From: Micractinium sp. NFX-FRZ
Taxonomy: Eukaryota; Chlorophyta; Trebouxiophyceae; Chlorellales; Chlorellaceae
Direction of reading: 5' to 3'
Assembly: GCA_029339195.1 (NCBI GenBank)
Contig: JAPTJF010000105.1
Location: 1 to 64,000, forward strand
Length of the DNA stretch: 64,000 bases
The notes under the pieces are model-generated. The model ran no database searches and was not told the DNA's origin. It was given only the letters and a program-made list of their open reading frames with translations. The position numbers and the translations under genes are program-made. Shown piece after piece: positions 12,725 through 60,513 of this stretch; position 1 is the first letter of the stretch, and each line of letters starts with the position of its first letter.

Positions 12725-14890
12725 TCACAGAGCCTCTGCGGCCAGGCGCTCCCGGAAGCTGCAGTAGCTGGCCAGGGCGCAACCGCCGCCCAGCGCGGCG
12801 GCGAACCCCGCAACGAGCGGGATCTGCAGGCCGACGCCAGTGCTGCAGAGCGGGGGTAGGCAAAGAGAGGGTGGGAGGTTGAGTAAGTAGAACAAAGGTG
12901 AGAAGCAGGGCCGGGGCATGGCGTGGTCGCTCGGTGTGCTGTGGAGTGGACTGGGCAAAGCCGCCACGACAGCAAGCAAGGAGGGGAGGGACAGGTTTCC
13001 CTCCCCAAGCCGTGAATTCACACACGCACACGCGCGCGCGCACACACACACAGCAACGGCTCCCCACACCCGCCCTCACCTGATCATCAGCTGGCCAAAG
13101 CCCAGCAGCGTGCCCCACACGCTGCCCGCCAGCCAGAGCTGGTTGCTGGTCCACAGCGCGCGAGGGATGGTGAGCGCACTGGCCATGATGGCGAGCGCTG
13201 CCACGCTGGGCGACACAGCGGACACAGTCAGCGCCAGGCTGGCGGGCTGCAGCAGGAAGAAAGCGACCGCGGGCCAGGCGCTGCGCCGCGCCGCGGGGGG
13301 CAGGCCGGGACGGCCGGCAGTGGCCACAGCAACCAGGGCGGCGCTTCCGGTCACCAGCGCAAGCTGTGTGCTTGGCAGGGTGGCCAGACGTGCCTGTGCG
13401 GCGGGCCACAGCGCCTGCACGGAATGGAGAAGACGGCGCAGGGCGGGCAGGCGTGGAGTTACCGTAGTGCGGGACTAGGCTGGGCTAGGGCGGGGAGGGA
13501 GGGGAGGGGCAGGAGTGGAGGAGGCGCAAGGAAGGCGGGGGGGCACCTCCAAGCAGCACACACCTTGCAGGGGAGTCAATGCCTGACAGGGTCGTGCGAT
13601 CACTGGTGCTGCCCACTCACCTGTGCAGCGGCGGCCACCCCCAGAGTCCCCACCATGCGTGTCCAGGCCCCCTGCAGCCAGCGCCCCTCCGCGCTGCCGG
13701 ACAGCCGCTCGCTCAGCGTGGGGCTGGCAAACACGACCGCCTGCGACCGGGTGGGAGGGGGAGCAGGGGTGCAGGGAGGTTGGTAGGGCGACATGCATCC
13801 ACTGCCATAGCCAACCTGGCGTTCTGTGCGCCCAGCACAAACGCTTGCTGAGCATCACTAGCAGTGTACAGGGCATCGGATGCGAGATGTGTGCACCTTC
13901 ACATGAACACTGGTGGAGGCCGGCTGCTGGCCTCATGCACTTTCACCCCCGCGTGCAACAGATTGACTGATGCATCGGCAGCTGGTGGCACACCATTGGG
14001 ACGCACTTGCCCACTCTCCACGCCTCCCCCAGGCACGCCTCCGCCCGGCCCACCTGCACGCCCACCTGCACGCCCACCAGCACGGCCAGTGAGACCAGCA
14101 CAGAGCCGGGCAGGCTGCCGCCGATGCACAGCTGCGCCAGCGCGGCCAGGCCGATCATCAACCCCTGCCCCTGCACCGCGGCCGCGGTGACCTCGCCCCG
14201 GGTGGAGAAGAAGGAGAAGAGCAGAGCGCTGGAGCACACGCCGATGAGGGAGGCCTGGAGGGGGGATGGGGCGGGTGGGGGGAGGGCGGGAGGGAGGAGG
14301 AGGGAGGGAGGTGAGCAGGGAGGGAGGTTGCGCGGTGAGGGGGCAGGTGGGAGCAGGCGGAAGCAAGGGCAGGCGGTGGATGAAGCAGGTGAAAGGGAGG
14401 TGGCATGGCGGGGCAGTTGGGCATGGCGGCTGCTGTTGCATTGCATCCTCACCGGCAGCGCCGCCCAGCCGGCAGCGCCGACTGCAGCCGCGGAGGCAAG
14501 CTGGTCGGGCATGAGGAGGGGGAGGGAGAGGAAGAGGTTTGGGATTGCAGAGAGGGCGACCAGGCGGGAGGTGAAGCGGTCCCAAGTCAAGCGCATCGGG
14601 CGGCCAGGCGTCGCTGCCTTGCGGGTGGTGGTGGCCTGTGCTGGGGCAGGCGCCGGTGCGGGCGCTGGCTCGGGTGCTGAGGTGGCAAATGACGTGACGA
14701 CCGGCGTGGCCTCCGCCTCAACAGTCATCATGTTTGCGGCAAGGCTGGAAGCTGCAGGCGCGCTGGCCCGGGGCGCAGTGCTGCTCTGACCGGCGGTGGC
14801 GGCGCTGCAGCTGCTGCTGCTGGCGCTGGCGCTGCGCGTCGCCTGCACCTGCGCCTGCACCACTGCTGCCGCCGCCACTGTCGCCTCTGC

Positions 14891-14926
<36 letters not shown>

Positions 14927-17031
14927 CTGGGAGGGGGCGGCGGCCTGGGAGGGCGCTGAACGGTAGTCCATAACAACCACGCCCCCGCTCATCGCGACTG
15001 TGAAGTCGTCACTCCACGCCGAGGCGGCAGGGGTACGGGCAGGGGCAGGGACGGCGGCAGCGGCGGGTTGGGCCTCTGTTGAGCTGCTGGAGGCAACAGC
15101 CGTGGCGCTTGCGCTGGCGGCTGTGTTCAAATTGATGCTGACGTTAAAGCTGGTGGTGGCGTTTGCTGTGGCTGTGGCAGTGGCGCTTGTGGCGGCGCCG
15201 GTGGAGGCAGAGGTGGAGACTGCAGGCTGGCTGGCGGGCTGGGCTGGCCGGCTGGCTGCCACACTTGCCGCCTGGTGGTTTGCGCCGGCTGTGGCGGCGG
15301 TGCTGGGCTGCTGCTGCTGCGCCTCTGTGGGCACGCTGTGCGGGTGCGGGCGCGCCTGCTGGGCGGCGGGCGGCGGGGTGCTGAGGCGCGGCTGCGCCTT
15401 CACCTCCACCGCCTCTGCCCAGGCACGCTGCTCAGCCGAGGGAAGGGCCCCCGCTGCGGCGCCCCCACGCGACGCGCTGCTGTCCTGCTGCACGGCAGGC
15501 TCGGGACGCCACCAGCGCTCAGCGGGGGCCTCTGGCGCCGAAGCGTCCACCGCCTGTGCAGGGAGGGACGGCCGGGGGTGAGGGAGGTAAGTGGGGATGC
15601 GGGAGCGGGTGAGCGAGGAGGGCAGGGGAGGGATTCGCGGGTTGGGGGCAGCAGCGTGCCGCAGAAGGCAGGCTTGTGATGCCAACACGACAGGCAGGGC
15701 CGCCCGGCAGCGCCGACTCTTTTACGTCCTGCCCTCCACGGTCCCCCGCTGTTGCCTCCCACCTTGACAGAGTTCTCAATCTGCTGGGCCAGCAGGCTCT
15801 GGATGTCGATTGTCTCCCCGATGATGCACCTGCAGGGGGGGTGGATCTGGACTTGAGTGAATGCCACACCACACCACACCACAGGACAGGGAGAGGGGGA
15901 AAGCGCTTCGTAGGCACCGCTTGGCCGGTGTTTCCCGCCCGAACGGTCACAAGATTCGTCGCCCTCGGCATCTCCCCCGCAGCACTCGCCTTCCTGCCCC
16001 TGCCGCCTAACTTTGGACCGGAACCAGAGCTCGCCGCCCCAGCCGCCCTCGCATACCGCACACACCGTCCGCCCGGCTCCCCCCGTCCCACTGGCCCCCG
16101 CTTGCCTGACGCCCGGCATCTTCATCTGCACGTCTGCCAGGGCTGAGGGCAGGTCGGCGCCGGAGCTGCGGCTGCTTGAGAGCAGGTAGGGAACCACCAT
16201 CACCTGGAAACATAACAAACGGGGCAGGCTGGGATGAGATGTGGGTGCAGTCACGAGAGGTGGATCTGTGTGGGTGGGTGGGTGGGTGGGGTGCGTTGGA
16301 GGGAAGATCTTGCGGGCGCGGTGGGGTGTGGGTGGGATCTTGCCCCAGCCATGGCTACCACGGCTCCCTGCCCCTCCCCTGCACAGGTCACACCAACGCC
16401 TGCCCCGCCCTCCCGCAGCCCCACCGCACCCTGCTGGCTCCGTCGGCTGTGCAGCCGCGCACGGCGCGCTCGAGGGTGGCGGGGTTTGCCACGCTCACCA
16501 CCTCTCGGCGGTACGCGTGTCTGCAGGGGGCTCAGCGGGCGGGCGGGCGGTAGGGCGGGTCGTATTAGCCATCCATTTGGGCAGCGGATAACAGCTGGAA
16601 CGGCACAGGGTGTGTGGGTGAGCAAGTTGAGGGGTGGATGCGTGCATGGGTTGAGCAGGCGAGAGGCTGGGGAGACCAGGCTGGGCAACCACCCACCCAC
16701 CCACCCACCAACCCACCCACCCGTAGGCAGCCGCAAAGTCCAGGAGCAGGTCATCTCCCTCTGGGGTGTGCCTCCCAGAGTCCACTATGACCACTCCCAG
16801 CACCTCGTTGCTGCGATGGCGCCCAACAGCGGTGCTGGCGGACTTGGCTGCAGAGGCGGCGGGGCGCGGCGCCCCGACGCGCCCGCTGCGCCGGTAGGGG
16901 GGGGTAGCATTGCGCAGACGCGCGCAGCCCGGCGCTGATCGCGTCACCGGCTTCAAAATGCCGTGTGGGAGCGCGGAGCAGCAGCGGGGGCCTGCGCGAG
17001 GGCAGAGTAGGGTTCGGGAGCCCAGCAGCAT
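12725..17031 (-). CDS. CbiX-like domain fused to a MEX1-like transporter domain (813 aa)
   Basis: Nine exons on the minus strand, all in phase: 17031-16721, 16520-16430, 16203-16106, 15829-15763, 15553-14453, 14254-14054, 13740-13621, 13414-13080, 12842-12725. Residues 1-75 are a Ser/Arg-rich plastid-type leader. Residues about 76-190 match the sirohydrochlorin chelatase (CbiX/SirB) fold from EVLGVVIVDSG to IIGETIDIQSLLAQQIENSV. Both catalytic histidines are replaced: the VDHGS position reads VDSGR (Ser85) and the GRH position reads SRS (Ser147). The 367-codon exon 5 then runs unbroken through an Ala/Ser/Gln-rich linker with a Gln tract into the first MEX1-like helix (RLVALSAIPNLFLSLPLL). Exons 6-9 complete the MEX1-like part, with ALTIPRALWTSNQLWLAGSVWG. 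The PQ motif is lost (LPLL). Intron 3 uses GC. Exon 6 has two donors 12 bases apart. A chimeric model is unlikely because one exon spans the join. Function unknown. Confidence 0.82.
13019..13053. repeat. (CA)n/(CG)n dinucleotide tract
   Basis: Alternating cacacacgcacacgcgcgcg-type purine-pyrimidine sequence in the last intron of the fusion gene; such tracts can adopt Z-DNA. Confidence 0.8.
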
Positions 17032-58127: not shown

Positions 58128-60513
58128 TCACGCTGTGGCGGCCTTGCGGCGTGCGCGCGCGTCTTGCGTGAAGGTCAGCGCAAACCAGGCCCACAGGAGG
58201 ACGGTGGCGCCGGCAAACAGGGGGGTGGGCAGGAAGCGGAGGCCGGTGGCGGGTGAGCGGCCCAGGAACATGCTGCGGGGGATCAGGGGAGGGGCGGGCG
58301 TGGGACGGGGCGGGTCAGACAGCGACAGGGCAGGGTGAGCGGGCCATCCGGCCATGAGCACAAGCACGGCACGGCACGGACAGCATGGCCTGCTTGCCAC
58401 ATGTGGCGGTGGGATGCGCGCCTGGCTCCCGCCTCGGCCCCCTCCGCCGGGCTGACCAGCCACTCATCCCCACCGCCTATTTTCCTGCCCGACAGCCTCC
58501 CCAACACCATCCCACCCCACACGCACACCCACCTCAGCAGCTGCGCCCAGCCAAAGAAGAGGGAGCCCCAGAGGGAGCCAGCGAGCCAGACCCAGTCGCG
58601 CGTCCACAGCGCGCGCGGCACCATCAAAGCGTTGCCCGCCGCCGCCAGCAATATGGTGGCCAGCGAGAGGCCCTGGAGGGAGGCGGGGTCCGTGAAGTTG
58701 ACCACCAGCTGGCTGACGGGCTGCAGCATGAAGAGGGCGGTGGCGGTCCAGGCAGAGGCGGCGGCCCAGGCGCCGCGCAGCGCGGGCGGCAGCCGCCCCG
58801 CCGTCTCCGCCGCCAGCACGGCACACCCCGCCGCCAGCGTCAGCTGCCCCGGCAGCAGCGTGGTCGACTGCGGGCTGAAGGTGGCCCACAGCACCTGAAG
58901 GAGGTGGAAGAGGAGGAGGGGGGGGGGGGGGGGGGGCCGAGAAAGGCGAGCAGGGTTGGGGTAGGCTCATTGGGTGGGCAAGCCCGTGCGGCGCGCGCGC
59001 AACAACACCTGGGACGGTCGATGCTGGCTGGCCACCCAAATTTTGCACGGCACTAGAAGCATGCGCTGTTGCCGCAGCTGGCACCATGCGCCCAAGGCCT
59101 TCACTGTTTCACTCCACTTGGGCTGCCACAATCTGGGCAGCTGCCCGGCAAGTGCACCCACTTAGGGGGCGAGCGCCCTTCAGGCCCGAGGCACTCTTGC
59201 CAATCCCCCTTCGCAGGCCGTGCTGTGCCGCCTCTCTACTCTGCTCCTCTACGCCCCAGGCCCAGTACTAGCGGATGCTGCACCCGTGGCCCACCTGAGG
59301 CACTCCTGCCAGCCCCGCCAGCCCCAGCAGCTTCTGCCAGGCGCCCCACAGCTGCTGCCGCTGCTTGCTGCCCTCCAGTCGCCCGCTCAGCTTGAGGCCC
59401 GTGAGGATCGCCTGCGGGGGAGAGAGGCAAGGAGAAGGGGGGTTTAGGGGGCGCTGGGATGTCAGGATGGGCAGGAGAAGCTTGCGTGTTGAACTCTCAA
59501 CTCTTAGGGAGCACTGCAGTTGCCTCGGGACAGGCAGGCAGGCAGGGCAGGGGGGCAGGACGTGCGCCGGACAAAGCGCGGTGCACAGCGCCTGGCGCAC
59601 ACCATGGCAGGCCAGCCCAGCCGGGCTGCCCGCCCCGCGCCCCGGCATGCACCCACCTGGAGGCCAACGAGCGCGGCGAGCGCAGCGTACACAGCGCGCG
59701 GCATGTGCCCCGCCACGCGTATCTGCGTCAACACGGCAAACGAGGACAGGATGCCCAGCGCCTGCACCACCACCGCATTGCCCTCCCTCTTGGTGGCAAA
59801 GTATGAGAGCAGCAGGGAGTTGCCGCCCAGGCCTGTCAAGTAGCCCTGCACGCGCGGGGACGGGGCGGGAAGCGGGGGTAGAGGGTTGGCGGGCGAAGGC
59901 CATGCGGAGGCCCATGCAGGGCGGGCAGGCCACTGCTGCCGCAGTCACTGCTGCATGCCTCATCCCAGTGGAGATGTCGGCCCAATTATCACCAGGGTGC
60001 TGAAGTATGAGTGCAGCGACCAAGTATGGGCGGGCAACCAAGTATGGGCGGGCAGGCAAGTATGGGCGGGCAGGGACGGGGGCGGAGGCGGCTCACCAGC
60101 CAGGAGAGGCCCGCCAAGATTTCGGGGCGGCCCGCCGACAGGGCGGCGTGGTTCTTGAGCAGCTGGGGCAGGAAGAGGAAGAGGAAGGGGATGGTGGAGA
60201 CGGCCACCATGCGGGTGGTCAGCTCGCCCCAGTCGGAGCGGCGCGGCGCGTGAGCGACCACGGGCGCGGCTGCGGCGGTGGCGGGTGTCGGCGGCGCTGC
60301 GTCGCCGGCCGCGGCGCTGCCCGCATCGCTCGCTGACCCGGCGCGGATGAGCCCTAGCAGCGAACGCCGCGAAGGTGCGCTAAATCCAGCAAACTGGCTG
60401 CGTGCCGGCGCGGCGTGGGCCTTGCTTCGCCGGCAGCTGGCCGGCGCAGCATGCAGCTCCTCTGCGCTGTCCACAAGCCTCATGCGGCTTGTTCGGTGCA
60501 GGCCTAGACTCAT
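58128..60513 (-). CDS. MEX1: Maltose exporter 1-like protein (MEX1), plastid envelope
   Basis: In plants MEX1 exports maltose from starch breakdown across the inner chloroplast envelope. Five exons on the minus strand, 60513-60097, 59845-59657, 59411-59295, 58894-58533 and 58272-58128, give 409 aa, the family length. Residues 1-80 form a basic, Ser/Ala-rich transit peptide (MSLGLHRTSRMRLVDSAEEL). Family signatures are IPFLFLFLPQLLKN with the PQ motif, GYLTGLGGNSLLLSYFATKR, the central VLWATFSPQSTTLLPGQLTL, ATALFMLQPVSQLVVNF, and ALMVPRALWTRDWVWLAGSL. About nine or ten membrane segments are visible. All introns are GT-AG, and their four positions and phases match those of the MEX1-like half of the fusion gene at 12.7-15.5 kb, showing the two are paralogues. 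Intron 3 contains a 19-base G run. Confidence 0.93.
58918..58936 (+). repeat. G homopolymer, 19 bases
   Basis: Uninterrupted G run 24 bases beyond exon 4 of MEX1, within intron 3 (C-rich in the transcript, so it acts as part of the polypyrimidine tract before the exon 4 acceptor). Confidence 0.9.

Follow-up and report, generated by a model that had tools for sequence, protein, structure and literature searches.

Gene structure and joint of the fusion

We analysed positions 1 to 64,000 of contig C105 (JAPTJF010000105.1; hereafter the window) of the green alga Micractinium sp. NFX-FRZ, whose genome assembly comprises 66.07 Mb in 838 contigs. G+C content is about 66% in the window; the nuclear genomes of M. 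rhizosphaerae and M. conductrix are given as 68.3 Mb with 65.3% G+C and 60.8 Mb with 67.4% G+C, respectively (PMC9922002). The minus strand of the window carries a gene in which a CbiX/SirB-like chelatase domain that has lost its metal ligands is joined to a membrane domain related to the plastid maltose exporter MEX1. The gene is a fusion that includes a pseudoenzyme. An earlier sequence-only reading had proposed this combination, which is well supported by the sequence and strengthened by a metagenomic relative (P0003, below), but that reading had missed an unfused pseudo-chelatase family that already has at least one database entry (COHA_003190).

The fusion gene extends from position 17031 to 12725 and its nine exons encode 809 residues without internal stops, which bears out the earlier claim of nine exons in consistent phase; a stop codon lies in frame 96 nucleotides upstream of the ATG. 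All introns have AG acceptors and GT donors, with the sole exception of a GC donor after exon 3 (window 16106). A second GC-AG intron follows exon 2 of an unfused paralogue on contig C50 (L017:3511). Exon 1 (16721–17031) contains the start codon, a putative transit peptide (about residues 1–70) and the first CbiX-like strand, and exons 2 (16430–16520), 3 (16106–16203) and 4 (15763–15829) carry the CbiX-like domain to its end at CIIGETIDIQSLLAQQIENSVK. Exon 5 (14453–15553; 1,101 bases) runs from the linker into the first MEX1-like helix, as had been described, and contains the ERWW family linker, a low-complexity stretch, the motif WSDDFTVAMSGGVVVMDYR (WSDDF...VVMDYR; residues 369–387, 14960–15016), a second low-complexity stretch and the helix. 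The rest of the MEX1-like half is encoded by exons 6 (14066–14254), 7 (13621–13740), 8 (13080–13414), in which PRALW and WLAGS are kept, and 9 (12725–12842), which includes the stop codon. The end of exon 6 is uncertain by whole codons because a 12-base tandem repeat of 3.4 copies (14048–14088) spans the splice site and offers several in-frame donors; the end adopted corresponds to that of the MEX1 paralogue (VGVQ/A in one and VGLQ/A in the other). A CTG/CAG repeat at 14891–14929 encodes a polyglutamine run in the fusion linker and is absent from P0003. The polyadenylation signal TGTAA has no site in the fusion gene, and none was seen after its stop codon or after MEX1.

Intron positions tie each half of the gene to a different paralogue. 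All four chelatase-side introns match those of the C50 paralogue in place and phase, and the first of them is also present in the genome's own SirB. The four MEX1-side introns match, again in place and phase, those of a MEX1-like gene elsewhere in the window (58128–60513, minus strand; five exons, 409 residues), although the first of these adjoins a 2-residue alignment gap. These matches on either side indicate that two genes were joined inside exon 5. That exon begins with sequence related to C50 exon 5 and ends with sequence homologous to the first coding exon of MEX1, which places the joint in or near the 122 low-complexity residues 388–509. The fusion and the window MEX1 lie 41 kb apart on the same strand, a hint of local duplication.

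We searched for protein relatives among proteins of 0.55 to 1.75 times the query length, a range outside which full-length fusions of about 800 residues fall, and some of these searches, among them the one that found the Chlorella ohadii protein P0004, scored the 8,000 best candidates. P0003, a metagenomic protein, reads through linker, motif and helix 1 without a change of frame, then across a stretch that aligns as an intron to the start of exon 6. Its identities to the fusion are 55/126 in the first linker, 20/23 in the motif block, 35/102 in the gap, 36/44 in helix 1 and 25/31 at the exon 6 start (leaving out 37, 0, 18, 1 and 0 unpaired window residues, block by block), and the joint interval is 129 residues long in the fusion, against 116 in P0003. 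A second metagenomic protein, P0001, has a dead first chelatase block (LDAGR) that is identical to that of the fusion at 30 of 34 residues and a transit part identical at 25 of 69. Both proteins list the same longest contig (54,798 bases, ENA), which suggests that they come from one locus. This relative resembles the fusion in its dead first block and in its single frame from linker to helix, whereas its linker has diverged. The record of P0003 lists PF28566.1 as a precomputed Pfam domain, which a search with our copy of Pfam did not report for it.

The pseudo-chelatase domain and its unfused relatives

The front of the fusion matched the CbiX family PF01903 (gathering cut-off 22 bits) at 37.0 bits for residues 1–189 and 34.2 bits for the whole protein, in agreement with the CbiX-like identity first assigned to it. 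NCBIfam chelatase models reached at most 13 bits against cut-offs of 120. A SirB with intact ligands is encoded on contig C27 of the same genome (110 bits).

The metal ligands of Bacillus subtilis SirB are His10, Glu43 and His76, and in CfbA enzymes the His pair is conserved but the Glu not strictly so (PMC11301274). We compared fold, ligands and motifs at the level of sequence. CfbA chains from the Protein Data Bank align to the genome's own SirB at the ligand sites, where the Glu of its HMEL block corresponds by counting to CfbA Glu42. Aligned with this SirB, the fusion has lost all three ligands: Ser85 (codon 16779–16777, exon 1) replaces the first His, Ser147 (codon 16167–16165, exon 3) replaces the second, and the HMEL block with the Glu is deleted from exon 2 (gap near 16487). 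Both His replacements had been recognized from the sequence at the outset, but the accompanying claim of an otherwise gap-free alignment is contradicted by the 4-residue deletion, which takes the third ligand with it. At the same sites C50 has Ala, the same HMEL deletion and Glu. Across paralogues and relatives the first-His position holds Ser or Ala and the second Ser, Glu or Gln, with only the first site visible in P0001 and P0005–P0007 and only the second in P0002 and P0004. The fusion shares with class II SirB/CbiX chelatases the fold profile, matched over most of the domain, but it lacks both His and the Glu and differs further in its extra linker and membrane half.

The unfused paralogue on C50 (L017:2924–5537) is a second dead copy and matched CbiX at 46.8 bits. 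P0004 of Chlorella ohadii (COHA_003190), listed as a "hypothetical protein", likewise combines the dead domain with the linker motif and lacks MEX1; it has the HMEL deletion and a diverged second site (SLEFQ). Its database model begins at exon 2 of its relatives and probably lacks the first exon. The ERWW/F motif is common to the fusion, C50 and P0004, and WSDDF...VVDYR to these three and P0003, which begins downstream of ERWW/F. The fusion has in common with the C50 type the dead CbiX domain, both linker motifs, the 4-residue deletion and the chelatase-side introns. However, C50 and P0004 keep a C-terminus of their own with a likely coiled coil (judged by eye) and no membrane half, at the place where the fusion has its MEX1-like half. 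The C50 linker contains repeated SSWGGDG-type units, and its probable coiled coil lies near the C-terminus.

Three unnamed proteins (P0005, P0006 and P0007) correspond to parts of the first exon of additional pseudo-chelatases. The SWAQSNAVG stretch ahead of their domain is, by eye, nearer to C50 (SWAQSTAVG) than to the fusion, so they may belong with the unfused proteins. The window's own genome was the eukaryote genome searched, the other genome sets being prokaryotic. A search of it with the C50 linker recovered, besides C50, the fusion (E = 3.4e-5) and, weakly, G000:C13:311402-311650 (E = 0.038, with stops inside) and G000:C181:49620-49787 (E = 0.158). No relative of the dead domain was confirmed in viral contigs or prokaryote genomes, where records near the window's genome may be excluded. 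Judged from these sequences, the dead chelatases of Chlorella-like algae form a separate family marked by a conserved linker motif. Because the unfused C50 shows the same ligand losses, the dead domain probably predates the fusion.

The MEX1-like half

The rear half of the fusion is 41% identical to the window MEX1 over 276 positions (E = 2e-31, two-sequence comparison), and the alignment extends from the first helix of the paralogue to its C-terminus. In the whole-genome search the window MEX1 was the only other relative found (best exon E = 2e-11), and the rear half by itself matched no Pfam family. Hydropathy peaks are confined to the MEX1-like half, and C50 and SirB have none. No relative of this half was confirmed in viral contigs, where again records near the window's genome may be excluded.

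The paralogue itself is a real gene with its PQ motifs kept, as had been proposed. It is 36% identical over 359 positions to Arabidopsis MEX1 and matched the Pfam PQ-loop family weakly (14.4 bits, cut-off 22). Its sole match in the Protein Data Bank, a vacuolar sorting protein at E = 0.31, was taken as chance. Arabidopsis MEX1 sits in the plastid inner envelope (PMC13222026).

In the fusion both PQ motifs are changed, LPQ to LPL (PL at residues 534–535, 14516–14521, placed by alignment to the paralogue) and VPQ to AAQ (AQ at residues 658–659, at the end of exon 7). The loss of a PQ motif that had been noted is real but was understated, since MEX1 has two and both are altered. The fusion is thus homologous to MEX1 exporters over the membrane part but lacks their PQ motifs, and it differs from them also in its N-terminus, which consists of the pseudo-chelatase and linker.

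Competing explanations and the likely role of the fusion

We think it somewhat better than an even chance that the fusion is a soluble type of pseudo-chelatase adaptor transferred to a plastid membrane, one that would bind a stromal partner or ligand without metal insertion and that would have a MEX1-derived envelope anchor. This reading draws on gene structure, domain homology, ligand loss, introns in common with the paralogues and a relative with the same joint, and from these we infer plastid location, a binding role, membrane anchoring and the loss of transport. The nuclear gene would encode a putative transit peptide, a dead CbiX/SirB domain, a low-complexity linker with its motif and a MEX1-derived membrane domain. 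It would have arisen from the joining, inside one exon, of a MEX1 copy and a copy of a pseudo-chelatase gene that was already dead, which replaced the C-terminal end of the unfused family. Most likely, the dead domain and linker motif would then interact with a partner in the stroma or with a tetrapyrrole, with no metal inserted, and the MEX1-derived part would hold the assembly at the plastid inner envelope. An adaptor is suggested for the front end because the unfused C50 type consists of dead domain, motif linker and coiled coil. The sequence-only reading had put forward a sensor, scaffold or regulatory role, which is kept here as a putative one.

Conservation among the pseudo-chelatases suggests that the dead domain is constrained. 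Six of them were compared in the exon-1 block, where they agree at 21 of 30 positions, 10 of which differ from the genome's own SirB; in the exon-3/4 block four sequences agree at 23 of 55 positions, 13 of them different from SirB. Such fixed sites specific to pseudo-chelatases point to constraint rather than decay. We also estimated nonsynonymous (dN) and synonymous (dS) divergence by NG86, leaving out gapped codons. For the chelatase domain against C50 we obtained dN = 0.26 and dS = 0.90 (123 codons). Together with the values for the MEX1 half given below, these results suggest that the dead domain is under selection and that the MEX1 half changed faster after duplication, although in both comparisons dS, taken between copies this old, is a rough figure.

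Several observations weigh against the adaptor reading. The putative transit peptide was judged from composition alone. When the pieces of the relatives were searched against Pfam by themselves, P0001 and P0003 gave no match, and P0002 and P0004 matched CbiX at 20.8 and 14.8 bits, below the cut-off of 22. The MEX1 half has dN = 0.56 and dS = 0.73 against MEX1 (296 codons), values that relaxed selection fits as well as a new role. Finally, 113 columns are common to the window MEX1 and Arabidopsis MEX1 (columns with a gap in the fusion left out), and of these the fusion keeps 54 and has changed 59, so that with about half of the shared columns kept, transport may persist. Strongly polar columns were not lost in significant excess (5/15 kept versus 49/98 of the others; Fisher p = 0.28). 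The term "degenerate", which the sequence-only reading had applied to the transporter half, is therefore apt for the PQ motifs but finds no support in the polar columns.

These conserved columns speak for the main rival, in which the MEX1-like half still carries sugar and the dead chelatase and linker form a regulatory or sensing module. It would also account for a first helix that is 82% identical to that of P0003 and for an alignment that spans the paralogue from its first helix to the C-terminus. However, both PQ motifs are altered and the LPL of the first recurs in P0003, a 7-residue gap lies opposite VNFTDPA or so in the alignment with the paralogue, and a MEX1 with its PQ motifs kept exists in the same genome. 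We regard a working carrier as possible but not probable.

We consider it quite unlikely that two adjacent genes, or a bicistronic mRNA encoding two proteins, have been merged here by read-through of exon 5. A bicistronic mRNA was the best rival to a single protein, since transcripts that are exclusively bicistronic have been described as widespread among green algae (PMC11291117), and in-frame Met residues at 464, 465 and 509 in the window offer possible later starts. Nor is an open frame of this size very rare at the G+C content of the window: among stretches 1,101 bases long 40 of 3,400 are open, and among those of the size of the 122-residue gap 628 of 3,440. The open frame alone is therefore weak evidence for one protein. 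Nevertheless, no stop lies between the halves, and the independent stop and start of bicistronic mRNAs are missing. We have mostly rejected this explanation chiefly on the evidence of P0003, which keeps its frame over the joint and has Met at 1, 72 and 139 (inside the motif) but none from 139 to the exon end at 304. A separate transporter start between motif and helix is therefore impossible in P0003, and a start is available there only within the motif or before it.

Decay of the whole locus into a pseudogene seems to us very improbable. The loss of the catalytic ligands and the high dN of the MEX1 half relative to its paralogue would fit such decay, but the nine exons are intact without internal stops and four compared blocks are 81–88% identical to P0001/P0003, the two linker parts being 44% and 34% identical. 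Least probable of all is a CbiX-like domain that still inserts metal through new ligands, for despite the kept fold profile all three ligand positions are lost and are filled by varied residues in paralogues and relatives, the NCBIfam chelatase models score far below their cut-offs, and a SirB with ligands is present in the genome.

Two old chloroplast parts have apparently been turned into one new membrane protein. We found no description of this architecture in the open-licence literature, among the matches listed. If the adaptor reading is right, the joining of two genes within one exon made a new plastid membrane protein out of a dead enzyme and a duplicated transporter, and a close relative of each part is still available for comparison in the same genome. 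It is also conceivable, though we think it unlikely, that the fusion is an envelope sensor in which the dead domain reads a siroheme precursor and the linker motif gates or recruits carbon export. Such a sensor would couple the export of starch-derived sugar to the assimilation of nitrogen and sulphur, both of which depend on siroheme. If the domain still binds tetrapyrroles, it would give access to the way in which plastids sense siroheme precursors.

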